Source of the DNA: Halobaculum roseum
Lineage (GTDB): Archaea; Halobacteriota; Halobacteria; Halobacteriales; Haloferacaceae
Reading direction: 5' to 3'
Assembly: GCF_019880245.1 (NCBI RefSeq)
Contig: NZ_CP082287.1
Coordinates: forward strand, 1-64,000
Length of the DNA stretch: 64,000 nucleotides
The position numbers and the translations under genes are program-made. The notes below the pieces were generated by a model. It made no database searches and had not been told where the DNA came from. It was given only the letters and a program-made list of their open reading frames with translations. This document shows, piece by piece, positions 41,138 through 49,567 of this stretch (its first letter is position 1; every line of letters begins with the position of its first letter).

Positions 41138-42073
41138 ATGTCTGAACCGATCTACGTCGTTGGCCACCAACAACCTGATACCGACACGATTTGCTCAGCG
41201 ATAGCTTATGCACGGTTGAAGAAGAAACAGGGTGCAGACGTCGTTCCTGCACGAGCAGGACCTCTCAACCCAGAAACACAGTTCGTCGTCGACCGATGGG
41301 ATGTCGAAGTACCGGCACGTCTCGACGATGCCGCAGGCGAACAATTGATTCTCGTCGATCACAACGAGTACAGCCAAACGGTGGCCGGAGCGGAAAAAGC
41401 AGAGATCGTCGAGATTATCGACCACCATCGTCTCGGCGGCATCGAAACGAGCGAACCCATTCTGTTCCGAAACGAACCTGTCGGGTCGACTGCGACGATT
41501 CTCACACAGCTGTTTGACGACGCGAACGAGACGATCACCACGCAGACCGCGGGGCTGTTGCTGAGCGGAATTCTCAGTGATACTGTTGTGCTCCGGTCTC
41601 CAACGACGACCGACCGAGACCGGACTGTAGCCGGGCGACTTGCCGATATTGCTGGTGTGGACTACGAAGCGTACGGAACGGATCTCCTCTCGCAGAAGAG
41701 CAAAATCGGGGAGAAGAGTCCCCGAGAGATGGTGCTCAGCGATTTCAAAGAGTTCGACTTCGACGGACAACACGTCGGCATTGGACAGATCGAAACGGTA
41801 GAGCCGTCGGCCGTATTGGATCAACAAGAGGCCGTCGTTGAGGCCATGAACGAGGTCGTTACTGAACGCGACAACGCGGTGTTTTTGCTCCTCGTTACGG
41901 ATCTGCTCGAAGAAGATTCGACTGCACTCGTCGCTGGTCCAGAAATCGAACTCGTCGAAACGGGGTTAGACACGACGTTCACGGACCACGAATCGTTCCT
42001 CCCGGGAGTGATGTCCCGGAAGAAGCAAGTCGTCCCGTTGCTGGAAGACGCCTTCGGCGCTCATTCCGCTTGA
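41138..42073 (+). CDS. ppaC: Manganese-dependent inorganic pyrophosphatase (family II, DHH)
   Basis: A 311-residue enzyme that hydrolyses pyrophosphate to phosphate. ATG 41138 is preferred to 41111 because the protein then begins right before the conserved core. Metal-binding motifs are GHQQPDTDTICSA, LVDHNE and the DHH motif IDHHRLGG. The C-terminal substrate site SRKKQVVP matches the family. All key residues are present. It is a stand-alone gene in the ion-homeostasis region. Confidence 0.93.
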   Translation: MSEPIYVVGHQQPDTDTICSAIAYARLKKKQGADVVPARAGPLNPETQFVVDRWDVEVPARLDDAAGEQLILVDHNEYSQTVAGAEKAEIVEIIDHHRLGGIETSEPILFRNEPVGSTATILTQLFDDANETITTQTAGLLLSGILSDTVVLRSPTTTDRDRTVAGRLADIAGVDYEAYGTDLLSQKSKIGEKSPREMVLSDFKEFDFDGQHVGIGQIETVEPSAVLDQQEAVVEAMNEVVTERDNAVFLLLVTDLLEEDSTALVAGPEIELVETGLDTTFTDHESFLPGVMSRKKQVVPLLEDAFGAHSA

Positions 42074-42175
42074 GAACGTGAGGGAGATATCCGGGTGGTG
42101 CGGTGGATTCGACAGATACACTGTTCGATCCGATAGACATCGCCGAAGGACAGAGAGAGACGGAACCGCCAGTCA

Positions 42176-42682
42176 TTACTCGGTACTGACTGCCGATCGA
42201 ACACGGTATTCAACCTCAATTACGTTCTCGGCGAGCTGTTCTACAGACGCCTCGATAGTAGCGACAAACGCGATAGCGACGATGGTGGCAGCGAGTGCAC
42301 CGATGATGTCGATCGGCCAATGATAGCCGACCGCCACTCGTGCTGCGCCCACGATTACCGCCAGAGCCACGAAGGCTGTACCAACCGCATAGTGTTTCTG
42401 CCAGAGTGCAGCGAGCGCGAAGGCAAACAGGACGGTCGTGTGCTGGCTTGGAAAGCTGTTAACGGGTGTATCGGACACGATCGTCTGCTGGACCTGGTAG
42501 GGTGCAGGATGTGCGAAAAACAGGCCGAAGCCGTAGGAAACGGCGATGGCGACGACCACGGTGGTAAACACCTGAAACGCATCTACTCGATAGCCCAGTA
42601 GCCACCCAACGATGAGAGATAGTGGAACAACGTAGATGAGCTCGTTTGCAGCCCCTACGAGCAGAGAGGTCACCAGACTCAT
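42176..42682 (-). CDS. PAP2-family membrane phosphatase
   Basis: A 168-residue protein with about five membrane helices. The second PAP2 motif is SFPSQHTTVLFAFALA (Ser-x-Gln-His) and the third is VGYHWPIDIIGA (catalytic His). The first motif (usually Lys-x6-Arg-Pro) is degenerate: FFAHPAPYQ. It is probably a lipid phosphatase acting on isoprenoid or phospholipid phosphates. It is convergent with the pyrophosphatase gene. Confidence 0.8.
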   Translation of the reverse strand: MSLVTSLLVGAANELIYVVPLSLIVGWLLGYRVDAFQVFTTVVVAIAVSYGFGLFFAHPAPYQVQQTIVSDTPVNSFPSQHTTVLFAFALAALWQKHYAVGTAFVALAVIVGAARVAVGYHWPIDIIGALAATIVAIAFVATIEASVEQLAENVIEVEYRVRSAVSTE

Positions 42683-42898
42683 ACTTGAAAAAACTCGGTG
42701 TGTGGGTAGAAGGTATCGGTCGTCAGTTTCAGCGAGAACTCCTACCTTTGACAGCGCAGTGTCTCTGACCGACCAGTTCCGCTACCTGACGGTCCTCTCT
42801 CACGCATGATCGCGTGGTCGGGCAACAGACACCGGCAGAAGAGCATATCGAGACGTCCTCACCGCACGTTCTTTTAGGTGGGAATATTCCACGCCCAC

Positions 42899-43069
42899 AT
42901 GGATCGAAGTACAATCGCTGGAATCGTCCTCTCCCTCATAGGACTCATTGGGTACGTCGCCGGGATATACGTCGCCTATCCCGGCCGGGCCTTTTCGATT
43001 ACCGTACTCATGGTCGGCATCGCACTCGTCGCAATCGCACAACAATCTGCCACGAGGGGAGGCGCATGA
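42899..43069 (+). CDS. Small two-helix membrane protein upstream of corA
   Basis: A 56-residue hydrophobic protein with two membrane helices (about 5-27 and 32-48). ATG 42899 gives a protein that ends with a 4-bp ATGA overlap into corA, so it is translationally coupled to the Mg2+ transporter. It may be a small regulatory subunit of CorA; this is inferred from coupling only. Confidence 0.75.
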   Translation: MDRSTIAGIVLSLIGLIGYVAGIYVAYPGRAFSITVLMVGIALVAIAQQSATRGGA

Positions 43070-44052
43070 GTCTTCACGCGATGGTGTATACGGCTGATGG
43101 CGTCGAGCGTCACGACGATCTCGACACTGCGCTCGAAGCACCCGGTGAGACGTGGATCCATGCAAACGACGTCGAACCAACCGAGATGAAAGCACTCAGA
43201 GACCGCTTTACTATCCATCAGTTGGCTGTCGAAGACGTGCTGCACGAAGAAACGCGGCCGAAAACCGAAGAGTACGACACCCACACGTTCGTGCTGATGA
43301 AGACAGCACGTCTGAGCCAGCGCGACGATGTCGAGTTCCACAAAGAAGTTCGAACGCACCCAGTGGGCTTCTTCATCGGCGAGGACTGGTTGGTCACGAT
43401 GTCGACGACGGAGATCGACGTCGTCGACCCGTCAGCGTCGCAGTGGACGAAAAACGGACGACGATTCGTGAACCGTGGCACGGATTTTCTCGCCTACCGG
43501 ATCATGGACGCCATCGTCGACGACTACTTCGACCTCCTCGACGAGATCGAGGACGACATCGAAGCGGTCGAAGAGCGCGTCCTCGACGAACCGGACCCCC
43601 AGATGCTCGAAGACTTGAACGACGTTCGACGGGATCTCCTCGCGTTTCGCAAGATCGCCTGGCCCGCTCGCGAAGCGATGTCGTACCTATCGCGGGGGGA
43701 CATCCCAGAGGTTGCCGATCGGAACGAGAAGTACTTCCGGGACGTGTACGACCATCTCGTCCAGGTCGTCGACCTGATCGAGACGTACCGTGATCTCACC
43801 GGTGGGTCGAGGGACATCTACCTGAACGCTGTCTCGCAGTCGACGAACGAGGTGATGAAGACGCTCACGGTCGTCGCGACCATCTTCATCCCGCTCACGT
43901 TCGTCGTCGGGGTCTACGGGATGAACTTCACCGACACGCCGTTCGCGATGCCGGAACTCTACTGGACGTATGGCTATCCAGCGGTCATGATCGGGATGGG
44001 AGTTCTCTCAGGGATGATGCTCGTCCACTTCCGTCGCCAGGATTGGATCTGA
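43066..44052 (+). CDS. corA: CorA-type divalent metal ion channel
   Basis: A 328-residue CorA homologue for Mg2+ (or Co2+/Ni2+) uptake. It has a large cytoplasmic domain with the long helix (AVEERVLDEPDPQMLEDLNDVRRDLLAFRKIAWPAREAM) and two C-terminal membrane helices separated by the GMN motif in VYGMNFTD, which forms the pore mouth. The length is family-typical. It overlaps the small membrane gene upstream; the MgtE/PhoU genes follow on the other strand. Confidence 0.93.
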   Translation: MSLHAMVYTADGVERHDDLDTALEAPGETWIHANDVEPTEMKALRDRFTIHQLAVEDVLHEETRPKTEEYDTHTFVLMKTARLSQRDDVEFHKEVRTHPVGFFIGEDWLVTMSTTEIDVVDPSASQWTKNGRRFVNRGTDFLAYRIMDAIVDDYFDLLDEIEDDIEAVEERVLDEPDPQMLEDLNDVRRDLLAFRKIAWPAREAMSYLSRGDIPEVADRNEKYFRDVYDHLVQVVDLIETYRDLTGGSRDIYLNAVSQSTNEVMKTLTVVATIFIPLTFVVGVYGMNFTDTPFAMPELYWTYGYPAVMIGMGVLSGMMLVHFRRQDWI

Positions 44053-44105
44053 AGCATCCCCTTCAGCTCAGACTATCTCGATATCGGTCCTCACCTGACG
44101 GGAAT

Positions 44106-44675
44106 TCACAGTACTGCAAGCACGAGTTTTGTTGCAACGAATAACGACGCCATCCCGAAGATGTCACCGGCGGTCGTCATCGCTGGCCCGACGAGATCGT
44201 CGGGGTTCATTCCCCGACGATACCCCACGAACACCACGACGACGATGACGGCGGTCAACACGAACCCAGCGAGCACACCGCCAACAAAGGCAATGAAGAC
44301 GAGTACCCAGAGCGGTGCGACGGCGTGACCAATTACCGAGAGAATCGCGAAGGTGAGAATGGCGGCGAACACGCTCGCGGTCAGTCCGTTGAGCAGCGCC
44401 GCCACGACGGCGTTCACGAGGCGGTCGTCCGGTTCGAACACCGGATCGAGCAACCCCTGGTGGAGGGCACTCGACAACCGAGACCCCAGCGACCCGTAGA
44501 CGCTCCCACGAATCGCCAGAAACGCCGGCACCATCACGAGCAAGCCCTGAACCGCTTTGAGTTCGGCGTCCATTCCCCCGAGGATCGTCCCTGCGAGCAA
44601 CCCGCCGAACGCACTCACCAGTACCGTCGGAAGGGCGCTTCGATACGAGTTTGTGACGACTGAGACGACAGACAT
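44106..44675 (-). CDS. Half-size MgtE/SLC41-type membrane protein, second half
   Basis: A 189-residue membrane protein with about five helices. ATG 44675 is used; the in-frame extension to 44828 is Ser-rich and non-coding. PAFLAIRGSVYGSLGSRLSSALHQG is typical of the MgtE/SLC41 domain (the pore-lining segment before an amphipathic helix), and ends with MNPDDLVGPAMTTAGDIFGM. It lacks the cytoplasmic N and CBS domains of bacterial MgtE. With the next gene it likely forms a heterodimeric Mg2+ channel. Confidence 0.85.
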   Translation of the reverse strand: MSVVSVVTNSYRSALPTVLVSAFGGLLAGTILGGMDAELKAVQGLLVMVPAFLAIRGSVYGSLGSRLSSALHQGLLDPVFEPDDRLVNAVVAALLNGLTASVFAAILTFAILSVIGHAVAPLWVLVFIAFVGGVLAGFVLTAVIVVVVFVGYRRGMNPDDLVGPAMTTAGDIFGMASLFVATKLVLAVL

Positions 44676-44772
44676 GACTATTCGGTCGGGGGCTGAACAG
44701 CTCCCGTTCTGTATTGGGACACGAAATTCTGGCTGAAAAAGCTGCTCGCTTTCAGTCGAGTGGATATCGGGT

Positions 44773-45333
44773 TCATGGGACGAGGAGTTGCACGACGGCG
44801 AAGAGGACGAGCACGCCGAGGACGTCACAGACGTTCGTGACGACGGGAATGACGACGTCGTCGGGGTCCAGTTCGAAGCGATAGGCCGTGTACGTCGCGA
44901 CGACGGTCACCAGAATCGCGAGGAACGCGAGGATGAGTCCACTCGCGAGGGCGACACTCACGACCATCCCGATCGACAGTTGGGGGTCACCGGTCACTGC
45001 GACGATGCCCCATCCACCAGCGCCGACGATGGGGAACACGCTCACGGCAAGCAACACAGTCGTGATCGTGTTTCCGAGGAGTCGGTCGTCGGTCGGGTCG
45101 AACGAGAGCATCCCGAGATGGAACGCCGTCGACAGCCGGGCGGACAGGATACTGCCGAGATTCCCGGCCGTTCCGATCATCACCGGGACCAACACCAGAA
45201 GCGTCGGGTACTGGAGGAGCGTCGCCTCGAACGAGCCCAGTGTGAGGCCGCCAACGAGTTCCAGAACAGTCAGCACGAGCAGGATCGGCAAGAGCGCTCG
45301 CGTAATCGACCGGACTGACCAGTGGTCGACCAT
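44773..45333 (-). CDS. Half-size MgtE/SLC41-type membrane protein, first half
   Basis: A 186-residue homologue of the neighbouring half-MgtE. ATG 45333 lies 2 bp after the upstream stop; GTG 45339 is an alternative. The pattern VPVMIGTAGNLGSILSARLSTAFHLG and LDPDDVVIPVVTNVCDVLGV match the equivalent segments of the partner. The two halves correspond to the two MgtE-type membrane domains of SLC41. Transcribed with the PhoU/TrkA-C protein. Confidence 0.86.
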   Translation of the reverse strand: MVDHWSVRSITRALLPILLVLTVLELVGGLTLGSFEATLLQYPTLLVLVPVMIGTAGNLGSILSARLSTAFHLGMLSFDPTDDRLLGNTITTVLLAVSVFPIVGAGGWGIVAVTGDPQLSIGMVVSVALASGLILAFLAILVTVVATYTAYRFELDPDDVVIPVVTNVCDVLGVLVLFAVVQLLVP

Positions 45334-45335
45334 CG

Positions 45336-46541
45336 TCACGCCGCCCAGTCTGCGAGTCGGTTGGCTCCTGCTCGCGTTCCTTTCGTAATGAGCACGTCGC
45401 CAGCACGAAGCGCCGTGTCCGGCGGCGGCGAGATCTGGTACTTCGTTCGGCCGTCGGTCGCTGCCGATTCTCGGCGGATCGCCACGATGTGCATCCCCGT
45501 TCGCGTCTTCACTTCGGCGTCACTGATCGTCGTCCCGTCGAGGCGACTCCCAGACGCGACAGTCGTTCGGTCGATGATCTCGTCGGATTCCTGGACGGCG
45601 GCTTCGACGACGGGATGGCTTCCGACGCCACGAAGCACGCCTTCGCTGATCTCGAGGGCCGCGTCACTGATGACCTCTGTACTGGCCGCGATGTGAAGCA
45701 ATCCTCGGATCGACACTGGGTCGTCGACCGTCTTGGCTGCACGAAGCGCCCAGACCTCGAACCGCGACTGGAGTGCATCGACCTCGACTTCGAGTTCGCG
45801 AACCTCTTCAGCGAGATCCGGGCTGTCGAAGAGCACGCTCCCGTACGCGAGATCGACGGCCAGTTCGCTCATGTTCTTCATGAGTGCGACCGTCTCGACG
45901 GCCCGGTCGAGATCCTCGAGTGGCTGTTCGGCCATCTCAGGTGTCGTAAACGGCTCGTCCGTGATCGTCGCGTAGACGCGTGCCAGTCCCTCCTCCGTTC
46001 CCCGACAGAACAAGATATCTTCGGCTTGGAGACGTGTCTCACGATCCGGATTGAGGAGCCAGTCGTCGTCGCGCCTGAGTGCGAGCACGCGGACGCCCGT
46101 CTCCGTCTCCAGATTGATGTCGCCGAGCGTTCGGTCGGCGTACGGTGAGTCTGCGCTGACGGTCGCGCGGGCGAGTGTCTCGACAGCGTCGGGGAGCACG
46201 CCACGGAGTGCCGGTGGCAGTCCGATGTCATCGAGGACGACCTTCGCGATGTCGCCTGCAGCGTCACTGATTTTCTCGGCGGCCCCGACGATTCCGAACA
46301 CGGGGGCGAGAGCTTCGGCCTCTTCGGGACGGCGGCCGGCCATCACGAGACTCATTCGGGCCTGCAACTGGAGGAGATCCATCTCGTCTTCGAGGGCGAG
46401 GACTTCCTCTGCGAGTGCCGCGTTTTCGAAGAGGACCGACGAATACGAGAGGTCGATGAGCAACTCGGCGATATCTTTCATCTCTCCGAGTACCTCCTTA
46501 ACGCTGACCGGCTCGTACTCGATTCCGTCGTCCTCGCTCAT
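45336..46541 (-). CDS. Tandem PhoU + TrkA-C regulatory protein
   Basis: A 401-residue soluble protein built of two repeats of PhoU-like helices followed by a TrkA-C (RCK-C) ligand-binding domain: residues about 10-110 PhoU, 112-185 TrkA-C, 200-300 PhoU, 320-400 TrkA-C. Typical TrkA-C segments are LGDINLETETGVRVLALRRD and ISDAEVKTRTGMHIVAIRRE. It is the first gene of the operon with the two half-MgtE channels and probably gates them in response to a nucleotide or ion. ATG 46541 is preferred over 46559. Confidence 0.88.
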   Translation of the reverse strand: MSEDDGIEYEPVSVKEVLGEMKDIAELLIDLSYSSVLFENAALAEEVLALEDEMDLLQLQARMSLVMAGRRPEEAEALAPVFGIVGAAEKISDAAGDIAKVVLDDIGLPPALRGVLPDAVETLARATVSADSPYADRTLGDINLETETGVRVLALRRDDDWLLNPDRETRLQAEDILFCRGTEEGLARVYATITDEPFTTPEMAEQPLEDLDRAVETVALMKNMSELAVDLAYGSVLFDSPDLAEEVRELEVEVDALQSRFEVWALRAAKTVDDPVSIRGLLHIAASTEVISDAALEISEGVLRGVGSHPVVEAAVQESDEIIDRTTVASGSRLDGTTISDAEVKTRTGMHIVAIRRESAATDGRTKYQISPPPDTALRAGDVLITKGTRAGANRLADWAA

Positions 46542-46761
46542 ACTGTGTACTGAGTCCACCGTTCACTTAATGGACTCCAATCGAGACCTCGATCAGCGAA
46601 CCACTCTTGAGACCCTCCCGGCGGAACGTAGTTACATATTGAGACGTGACGTAGACGTTCATATGTACAGCAACATCTCAGATTGAAGATGGATTATTCT
46701 GTCGTGGGGTCTGCTCGCCCCTGTTATTATGGTATTGGGACGCAAATTCCGAGATACTCGT

Positions 46762-46815
46762 GGCGATGGAGTCCGCCTTACCCCAACCGCCGAATCCGTC
46801 GGCTGATGACTCCTG
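46762..46815 (+). promoter_or_regulatory. Fluoride riboswitch (crcB motif), copy 1
   Basis: The aptamer fits the crcB-motif layout: GGCG/CGCC (46762-46765/46774-46777), a second stem GCCG/CGGC (46789-46792/46800-46803), the conserved GGCTGATGACTCC end, and a pseudoknot GGAGTC (46768-46773) with GACTCC (46808-46813). It precedes a small membrane protein gene (46848), whose GGAGGT ribosome site (46835-46840) can pair with TGACTCC, suggesting translational control by fluoride. Confidence 0.88.
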
Positions 46816-46847
46816 TTTCCACACTCCCCAAGGTGGAGGTCACCACG

Positions 46848-47054
46848 ATGGGACAACAGGATACACTAGATACGAACCACGCACCTGAACCGTCTGATAG
46901 AGCCTCGGCACTGCGATGGGCGATCATATTCTCAATTTGCTGGCTTATTGGATGGATTGTATTTTCCTACGTGACTGGAGAGACCTTCCGCATCGCAATA
47001 GAGACCGCACTCCCATATTCAGTCCTACTCGGTATCCTTGCGTACGTTCTCTGA
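46848..47054 (+). CDS. Small membrane protein under a fluoride riboswitch
   Basis: A 68-residue protein with two membrane helices (about 23-43 and 50-67; WAIIFSICWLIGWIVFSYV and then IAIETALPYSVLLGILAYVL). ATG 46848 is chosen over in-frame upstream ATGs because those lie inside the riboswitch, and because GGAGGT precedes it by 7 bp. It does not resemble CrcB. Control by a fluoride riboswitch, and its place next to a crcB pair with its own riboswitch, imply a role in fluoride tolerance that I cannot name. Confidence 0.8.
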   Translation: MGQQDTLDTNHAPEPSDRASALRWAIIFSICWLIGWIVFSYVTGETFRIAIETALPYSVLLGILAYVL

Positions 47055-47176
47055 AGAGACAGCTAAGAGAGGTCGTGACCGGTAGAAGACCGTAATTGAA
47101 GCGTGTTCAATAGTGATGGACAGTTCTCGATTCCAGAGGGCATAAGTGACGAGCAGAACGTTCTACTGATAGAATA

Positions 47177-47248
47177 GGCGATGGGGTCCGCCTAATCCAA
47201 CCGCCGAATCCGTCGGCTGATGACTCCTGTTCATGAGGACAGAGTCAT
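47177..47248 (+). promoter_or_regulatory. Fluoride riboswitch (crcB motif), copy 2, with start-sequestering hairpin
   Basis: Aptamer stems: GGCG/CGCC (47177-47180/47189-47192), GCCG/CGGC (47203-47206/47214-47217), and pseudoknot GGGGTC (47183-47188) with GACTCC (47222-47227). The same 3' strand can instead form a long hairpin: ATGACTC (47220-47226) plus TGT (47228-47230) pairs with ACA and GAGTCAT (47239-47248), burying the crcB start codon at 47247. The two folds exclude each other, so fluoride binding would release the start codon. Confidence 0.9.
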
Positions 47249-47642
47249 GGCAGAGAAAACCGCACACCCACTCGTTCGCGTCGAATCATTGGCACTCATT
47301 GCAATCGGTGGCTTTGCCGGGTCGAACCTCCGGTATTTCGCCGGATTTCTCTTGCCGGGGATGTACGGCACACTCGCCGTCAACGCGCTCGGAAGTTTCG
47401 CATTGGGGTTCGTTCTGTACGAAACGCTCTACTCGGGCGTCTTAGCCCAGGAAACTCGTGCTGTCGTCTCCACCGGGTTTCTCTCGTCGTTCACCACATA
47501 CAGTACGTTTGCATTGCAATCGAGTCAGGCACCACCCCTCTGGTTGGTCGTGAATATCGCCGCCAACTATACACTCGGATTTACAGGTGTACTGCTCGGA
47601 CGATACCTCGCACAGTGCGTCGATCGGCGGTGGTCCGAATGA
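47247..47642 (+). CDS. crcB: CrcB/FluC fluoride channel subunit 1
   Basis: A 131-residue Fluc-type fluoride channel. ATG 47247 is used; an in-frame ATG at 47220 lies within the riboswitch. Family segments include GGFAGSNLRYFAGFLLPG (Gly-x3-N-x-R-Y), TLAVNALGSFALGF (Asn of the pore) and STGFLSSFTTYSTFALQ (the phenylalanine track and Thr/Ser ion path). Four membrane helices. It overlaps the second crcB gene by 4 bp; two different subunits probably form an antiparallel heterodimer. Confidence 0.95.
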   Translation: MAEKTAHPLVRVESLALIAIGGFAGSNLRYFAGFLLPGMYGTLAVNALGSFALGFVLYETLYSGVLAQETRAVVSTGFLSSFTTYSTFALQSSQAPPLWLVVNIAANYTLGFTGVLLGRYLAQCVDRRWSE

Positions 47643-48001
47643 TCGAGTTCGACCCTGCACACGTCGTCGGCACCGGAGGAGCGGTCGGTGCGCTGCTTCG
47701 TCACTACGTGAGCCAGCTCGTCGATGTCGAAGAGTTCCCGACGGGGACGTTCACCGTGAACGTCCTCGGAAGCTTTGCACTCGGCTTCATCACGTTCCTC
47801 GGTGCGGACACGACGCTCCTATTGCTGTTCGGAACCGGTGTCTGTGGGTCGTTTACGACCTTCTCATCATTCTCCTTCGAGACAGTCCGTCTCTGGGAGA
47901 CAGGAGAACGAACTCGGGCGGTAGGCAACGCTGGAGGCAATCTGTTTGGCGCAGGGCTCGCAATTGGGTTAGCGTGGGGACTCGTCCAACTACTCGGTTG
48001 A
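47639..48001 (+). CDS. crcB: CrcB/FluC fluoride channel subunit 2
   Basis: A 120-residue partner subunit. ATG 47639 overlaps the first crcB. Motifs: GGAVGALLRHYVSQL, GTFTVNVLGSFALGF and GTGVCGSFTTFSSFSFET match the FluC pattern. Four membrane helices. The pair is the usual two-gene form of FluC, in which the two proteins insert with opposite topology and together form two fluoride pores. Confidence 0.95.
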   Translation: MIEFDPAHVVGTGGAVGALLRHYVSQLVDVEEFPTGTFTVNVLGSFALGFITFLGADTTLLLLFGTGVCGSFTTFSSFSFETVRLWETGERTRAVGNAGGNLFGAGLAIGLAWGLVQLLG

Positions 48002-48007
48002 GGAGGG

Positions 48008-48445
48008 TCAGTCGTCTTCGTTGATTCGAACGATATGAACGGGGATTGGAGTCTGACGGATGATTTTCTCGGTGACACTCCCGATGAGGAACCGATTGAA
48101 TCCAGTTCGCCCGTGGGTTCCCATAACGATCAGGTCAATGTCGTGGTCGGCTACGTACCGTAGGATTTCCTCGTGCGGTATGCCCTTTCGAATGGCCGTC
48201 TCACTCGGCACACCGACAGCTTCGGCCTCGGTCTGGATGGCTTCGAGCGCTGTTTCACCGGTAGCCTCGAGCTCGTCTGCCAGCGTGAGCCACTTCGACT
48301 CGGGAAGTGTGTTGTAATCCCGCGTATCGACGACGTAGAGTCCGCGAACAGTTGCTCCCGTGAGGTCAGCTAATCGAACGCCTTCATGGATTGCTTTCGT
48401 CGCTCCCGCGCTCCCGTCAGTTGGAATCAGAATCTGTTGGTACAT
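48008..48445 (-). CDS. Universal stress protein (UspA) family
   Basis: A 145-residue UspA protein. ATG 48445 is chosen to match the family start (MYQQILIPTDGSAGATKAI). The ATP-binding signature GTHGRTGFNRFLIGSVTEKIIRQTPIPV has the G-x2-G-x9-G-S pattern, so it probably binds ATP. It is convergent with crcB, with stops 6 bp apart, and may be stress-related. Confidence 0.92.
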   Translation of the reverse strand: MYQQILIPTDGSAGATKAIHEGVRLADLTGATVRGLYVVDTRDYNTLPESKWLTLADELEATGETALEAIQTEAEAVGVPSETAIRKGIPHEEILRYVADHDIDLIVMGTHGRTGFNRFLIGSVTEKIIRQTPIPVHIVRINEDD

Positions 48446-48640
48446 AAGAGACAATATGCGTGGTGACCTCTTCAATTCGGGCCTCTATCGTCCAGTTACC
48501 TATCTAACCGTGTCGTGGAGCCTCCTCTCATAACGTGGCACTGGCTCAAGACCAAACGTCGCCAGCCCTCGTACGTTTATTTTCCCCTTAATGGGTGAAG
48601 GGTTCGCCGTACGGGCGAATCTCGATAATTGGTGAGACAC

Positions 48641-49567
48641 ATGGCGACGAGAGATATCTACGAAACAAGCTTCGACGAGGACGTCCAGACAAACTCCAGC
48701 ACGAACCCATGTCCGGAGTGCGATGGCCGAGTCACTACTAACTCGGTCGAAACTATCTGTGAAGACTGTGGACTCGTTATTGACGAACAACGAATCGACC
48801 ACGGTCCTGAATGGAGAACTCACGATCAGGACCAGCGAAAGCGGACGGGCGCTCCACTGACTACGGCACGGCATGACCGAGGGCTGTCGACCGAGATCGG
48901 TCGCGGGAAAGATGCAAACGGGAACGAACTCTCTGGACGAAAGCGCCAGCGGCTATCCCGAATGCGGCGTGAACAGACTCGTGGTCGGTTCCAGTCGAAA
49001 GCCGAGCGAAATCTCGCACACGGCCTGGGTGAAGTTCGAAGAATCGCGAGCGTCCTCGAACTCTCAGGTTCGGTCCGTGATCAGGCGTGCCAACTGTTCC
49101 GGAATGCTCAGAATGAAGACCTGCTTCGAGGCCGATCAATCGAAGCGATAGCTGCAGCTAGCGTGTACGGGGCCTGTCGTTGTAACGGCCACCCGCGGTT
49201 ACTCGACGATGTCGTCGACGCAGCACGCGTCGAACAATCGAGAGTCGCAAATGCGTACAAGACGCTGAATACAGAACTTGGACTGCCGACCCAGCCTGTT
49301 CGACCGAGCGAATTCATCCCCCGGCTTGCGTCGGAACTTGATATTCCAGCGTACATCCGACAGCGAGCTCGGAGGCTGGCCGAACAGTCGGAATCGACAG
49401 GAGTAGCGTCGGGCGTCAAACCATCAGGATTCGCAGCTGCCTGTCTGTACAAGGCGGGTCGCGAAGAGGGACGATGGCTGACACAGGCGGAAGTCGCTGC
49501 GGCGGCGAGCGTCACTGCACCAACCATCCGGTCGCATCAAGACGTACTGCGCGAGTTGGCCACCTGA
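48641..49567 (+). CDS. tfb: Transcription initiation factor TFB
   Basis: A 308-residue TFIIB-type factor that recruits RNA polymerase to TBP-bound promoters. ATG 48641 gives a start near the zinc ribbon (CPECDGR...CEDCGLV, about 22-45). The B-finger/linker region includes EWRTHDQDQRKRTGAP. Two cyclin-like repeats follow (about 115-205 and 210-300), with a C-terminal HTH (AEVAAAASVTAPTIRSHQDVL). Haloarchaea carry several TFBs, and plasmid-borne ones often control accessory regulons. It probably gives this element its own transcription specificity; that is inferred. Confidence 0.93.
   Translation: MATRDIYETSFDEDVQTNSSTNPCPECDGRVTTNSVETICEDCGLVIDEQRIDHGPEWRTHDQDQRKRTGAPLTTARHDRGLSTEIGRGKDANGNELSGRKRQRLSRMRREQTRGRFQSKAERNLAHGLGEVRRIASVLELSGSVRDQACQLFRNAQNEDLLRGRSIEAIAAASVYGACRCNGHPRLLDDVVDAARVEQSRVANAYKTLNTELGLPTQPVRPSEFIPRLASELDIPAYIRQRARRLAEQSESTGVASGVKPSGFAAACLYKAGREEGRWLTQAEVAAAASVTAPTIRSHQDVLRELAT

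Follow-up and report, generated by a model that had tools for sequence, protein, structure and literature searches.

Here we describe a double fluoride riboswitch locus in Halobaculum roseum, in which one aptamer precedes the two-gene FluC channel and the other precedes a gene for a 68-residue membrane protein. The initial annotation had proposed this arrangement from a 64,000-nucleotide stretch of the genome (the window, to whose numbering all positions below refer; every feature of the locus lies on the plus strand), and our analysis confirms both the double riboswitch locus and the fluoride-linked small gene as real. The explanation that we favor, and consider probable, is that a small membrane protein linked to arsenic-efflux (ars) clusters has been recruited under a duplicated fluoride aptamer, giving two adjacent fluoride-switched transcription units. 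A gene under a fluoride riboswitch is a strong candidate for fluoride defence, and in the sample surveyed the fluoride riboswitches of haloarchaea otherwise guard FluC with almost no exception. If a small membrane protein is shared by fluoride and arsenic loci, that would suggest that resistance to toxic ions includes a common step which has so far gone unstudied.

Both aptamers were recovered by a covariance-model scan with the fluoride riboswitch family (crcB motif, RF01734). Aptamer 1 occupies 46753–46822 (50.9 bits, E = 4e-12) and aptamer 2 occupies 47168–47236 (54.0 bits, E = 3.7e-13). Each match runs over the full model (positions 1–64) at a score above the gathering score of 34 bits, and both RNAs keep P1, P3 and the pseudoknot. 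The initial annotation had placed the first aptamer at 46762–46815 and the two some 0.4 kb apart; the model match encloses that interval, the conserved core (GGCGAUGG) has its first base at 46762, and the core-to-core spacing of the two aptamers is 415 nt. Where the locus differs from other fluoride riboswitch loci is in holding two aptamers, and a whole-genome RF01734 scan found no third one anywhere in H. roseum.

The same arrangement, with both aptamers, is present at an orthologous locus in Halogeometricum pallidum JCM 14848, with which the block at 46667–49554 shares 88.6% DNA identity. Of the 54 core positions, 5 are different between the first aptamers of the two genomes, and four of these five differences make up two P3 pairs altered on both sides (C-G to U-A and A-U to G-C in the alignment). 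When 15 haloarchaeal aptamers are compared, pairing in P1, P3 and between the loop and the 3' strand of the pseudoknot is kept in 98.6% of cells, and five of the 14 pairs have changed on both sides, as against 0–1 in slid controls. None of 500 shuffles equals the observed number of paired cells, the double changes or the covariation score. Because of the compensated P3 changes and the covariation across the 15 aptamers, selection on aptamer 1 as an RNA structure is well supported by sequence comparison. The double locus is likewise beyond chance, since the arrangement recurs in H. pallidum and the helices show compensatory change.

Right after aptamer 2 come fluC1 (CrcB, 131 aa, 47247–47642) and fluC2 (CrcB, 120 aa, 47639–48001), which match PF02537 with 63.8 bits (E = 2e-17) and 86.3 bits (E = 2.1e-24), respectively, against a cut-off of 32.9. 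This is the order seen at nearly all surveyed haloarchaeal loci. A fluoride aptamer match at E ≤ 0.001 is present in 66 of the 391 Halobacteria genomes scanned, and in 34 of these it scores above the RF01734 cut-off. The neighbourhoods of 66 matches were surveyed, with a few weak listed matches left out, and 62 of them have FluC downstream in the same orientation, no more than 1.2 kb away. Only at the first aptamers of the window and of H. pallidum does another gene intervene, putting FluC at a distance of more than 150 nt. Contig C1 of the H. roseum genome carries a second FluC pair (G000 C1:2501473-2502254), at which the whole-genome scan found no fluoride aptamer.

The gene behind aptamer 1 starts 25 nt past the aptamer and spans 46848–47054 (68 codons from the ATG at 46848, then a stop at 47052–47054). 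A Shine-Dalgarno-like GGAGGT at 46835–46840, about 7 nt upstream of the ATG, is kept in H. pallidum. The encoded protein is polar at its N-terminus and contains two hydrophobic segments, the centres of which fall near residues 33 and 57–59. It has no Pfam match up to E = 1 and no NCBIfam family above cut-off; a PF02537 match is absent, on which ground a FluC fragment or a FluC-like origin was rejected, and this bears out the initial description of a membrane protein unlike FluC. In size it resembles the YhdT/DUF997 small membrane proteins, and the YhdT model NF007918 gives a weak match over residues 22–47 (E = 0.0027); membership in this family (NF007918, PF06196) was nevertheless rejected, the score being 18 bits against a curated cut-off of 107. 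A profile search of the PDB returned four weak matches, the best at E = 0.077, and an AlphaFold model built from the single sequence, which came out as one long helix (pTM 0.42), was uninformative and was not used. Between the window and H. pallidum, dN/dS is 0.47 for the small gene versus 0.10 for fluC1 and also for fluC2, a comparison that draws on only about 21 changes, and purifying selection on the small gene is not firmly shown by these sequences.

What kind of protein this might be is suggested by its relatives. In the 391 genomes, a search with the small protein returned the H. pallidum orthologue (84% identity), a protein in genome G277 (38%, E = 1.9e-9) and weaker matches in G055 and G303; a four-row profile search added G209, G164 and G250, and a search among genomes of the family to which G277 belongs added G439 and G440. 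The distant relatives are 22–38% identical to the small protein and have a W-rich pattern in common with it. In pairwise comparison, the G277 protein is 35% identical over the full 68 residues (E = 1e-13) and the G303 protein 29% over 48 residues. The G055 match falls inside a longer ORF of 187 aa and was treated as noise, as were class-wide profile matches at about E = 1e-2 to 5e-4 (for example G195 and G300). No extra relatives were found in the 170 genomes searched of H. roseum's own family, none in a plasmid search with the window protein as query and none on viral contigs. The unit of aptamer and small gene is known from two genomes, H. roseum and H. pallidum.

The initial annotation had suggested a search for homologues behind other fluoride riboswitches, and only the one orthologous locus in H. 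pallidum was found to have one. Instead, nearly all of the distant relatives are located in ars clusters (ArsR-ACR3-ArsC). In G277, G303, G209, G250 and G440, the ORF follows a gene for an ArsC-like phosphatase (shortened in G277) that adjoins an ArsR-ACR3 pair, with ACR3 confirmed by TIGR00832 in four of the five. The phosphatase matches both LMWPc (PF01451) and ArsC models, the latter at scores below the NCBIfam cut-offs. On a Halococcus dombrowskii plasmid the order is arsR-acr3-phosphatase-ORF-arsD-arsA, and Halocatena salina shares this order as far as the ORF, while in Halocatena marina and on contig 2 of G439 the ORF comes after ArsR and an ArsP-like permease. G164 is the exception, with no ars gene seen near its relative. 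In the Halococcus and Halocatena clusters, the ORF encodes, or once encoded, a two-segment W-rich relative of the window protein, from which the window copy differs in standing under a fluoride aptamer. It is flanked by a PhoU/TrkA_C gene and fluC1 rather than by ACR3-ArsC, no ars gene lies beside it, and the two ACR3 loci of the H. roseum genome are without the small ORF.

Several of the ars-linked copies are broken. In-frame stops interrupt the relatives in G209, G250 and H. dombrowskii, all where G303 has tryptophan, and those of G440, H. salina and H. marina seem to have undergone frameshifts or decay. At the ars-linked loci L083, L084 and L110, 7 of 7 internal stops fall on tryptophan positions of G303, and codon 29 (zero-based) is a stop in all three (TAG twice, TGA once). 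No codon becomes a stop more easily than TGG, so these positions may reflect chance decay. The intact copies are the two fluoride-linked ones, that of G277 (with a copy at identical coordinates in G439) and that of G303. The family is thus losing ground in ars clusters, with the fluoride-linked copy kept in two genera, and given the several broken ars-linked relatives it may be dispensable.

How the two aptamers are transcribed can be approached through the other haloarchaeal loci. When 64 haloarchaeal loci are aligned on the aptamer core, an AT peak appears at −34 to −30, from which the usual archaeal promoter spacing would put transcript starts about 5 nt upstream of the core. This peak, about 32 nt upstream, suggests that each window aptamer begins its own transcript. 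Candidate TATA elements lie at 46720–46731 for the small-gene transcript (CCTGTTATTATG, with CTTATAG at the equivalent site in H. pallidum) and at 47138–47149 for the FluC transcript (GGGCATAAGTGA, in a position relative to the aptamer that is shared with other haloarchaeal loci). For the former, the highest-scoring PWM match at the expected location (±3 nt) ranks among the top 0.3% of all positions in the window, which is a weak test; for the latter, the PWM score is not significant alone.

As to switching, a 12-pair hairpin at 47220–47248 is a candidate OFF state for fluC1, in which the pseudoknot's 3' strand (AUGACUC) would pair with GAGUCAU at the start codon. Its folding energy is −13.8 kcal/mol (z = −2.4 against shuffles), and that of the equivalent hairpin in H. 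pallidum is −14.5 kcal/mol (z = −2.8); such a fold would make this an ON switch that acts on translation. For the small gene, a fold pairing UCCUGUU with AACAGGA inside the ORF is possible in both genomes, with z = −0.75 in the window and −3.1 in H. pallidum. As only the H. pallidum fold clearly beats shuffles, no expression platform is established for aptamer 1. Judging from the RNA class, fluoride likely raises expression of the small gene, and would probably do so by translational release.

On the explanation that we favor, the locus would work as follows. Each unit would have its own archaeal promoter, with its transcript starting a few bases upstream of the aptamer. Unit 2 is the standard haloarchaeal one, an aptamer and then fluC1-fluC2 forming the fluoride channel, while unit 1 would be a duplicated aptamer set before a small protein whose family is found mostly at the end of ArsR-ACR3-ArsC clusters. 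With rising fluoride, the aptamers would fold the pseudoknot and free the ribosome-binding region, presumably an ON response at the level of translation, and the channel and the small protein would be made together. Within the membrane, the small protein would most likely assist ion efflux or serve to protect the membrane. Its role in fluoride tolerance is offered here as a hypothesis, with caution because the small gene evolves fast and is rare, being known from two genomes. The initial annotation had called it a new fluoride-tolerance component. The family libraries searched contain no family for it, and a better description is that of a small membrane protein with ars linkage that has come under fluoride control in two genomes, as its recognisable relatives are nearly all in arsenic-efflux clusters.

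The same fast evolution could be read differently. The small gene may be a passenger, a fragment of an ars cluster lying beside a duplicated aptamer, switched by fluoride and decaying with no role in tolerance, and its dN/dS of 0.47, the stops or frameshifts in most ars-linked relatives and the presence of the unit in two genomes only would all fit. We find this rather unlikely, however, given that the frame, the start codon and the Shine-Dalgarno-like site are kept in two genera despite diverged synonymous sites, that aptamer 1 has kept its pairing via compensated changes, and that the protein retains the W-rich pattern common to its distant relatives. A wider role for the protein is a similarly tentative idea: it might be a general accessory of toxic-anion efflux, which in some haloarchaea serves ACR3 or ArsP-type transporters and in others has been rewired to a fluoride riboswitch, and would then be a new tolerance component not tied to one transporter.

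Two further readings give FluC the central place, and both seem to us improbable. The aptamers share a strand and are only 0.4 kb apart, which is what one would expect if a single long transcript with two aptamers served to steepen FluC expression, with the small ORF as a by-product or leader ORF; against this, aptamer 2 is preceded at the standard spacing by a TATA-like element, the aptamers flank a complete gene that has a ribosome-binding site of its own, and the small ORF has homologues elsewhere. A direct role at FluC, with the small protein as partner subunit or modulator, would account for their adjacency and co-regulation in both genomes, yet about 60 other haloarchaeal aptamer-FluC loci are without such an intervening gene, and the relatives accompany ACR3 and ArsP-type permeases, not FluC. 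The small membrane protein falls outside the riboswitch-associated gene classes given in the available portions of two papers (PMC2864571; PMC11139923). A literature search with most subscription journals outside its reach found no paper on fluoride riboswitches in haloarchaea or Thermococcus kodakarensis, which is no proof of novelty.

Upstream of the locus, a few genes away, the window carries a gene for a manganese-dependent inorganic pyrophosphatase (NF003877, 41138–42073), for which the whole-genome scan found no aptamer of its own. In H. pallidum the pyrophosphatase gene (L003, 2793–3728) directly precedes aptamer 1. A 4.6-kb segment (42056–46666), missing from the matching place in H. 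pallidum, separates the two in the window and contains CorA, two MgtE-like genes and the PhoU/TrkA_C gene.

The four of the 66 surveyed matches without FluC are also of some variety. L080 and L082 are partial matches inside other genes. At L008, where FluC is cut short, the aptamer is followed by a fluC1 that is replaced by unrelated sequence beyond about 20 codons. L014 is an aptamer-like RNA whose 1.2 kb of downstream sequence contains no FluC; the first gene called after it is a zinc-ribbon-like ORF of 61 aa. Finally, many of the weaker-scoring haloarchaeal aptamers (L065–L069, L071–L075, L077–L079, L081 and L086–L099) have in common a variant core with a GGGGCC loop and a GGTCCC 3' strand; these often carry long P3 inserts, yet lie close upstream of fluC.
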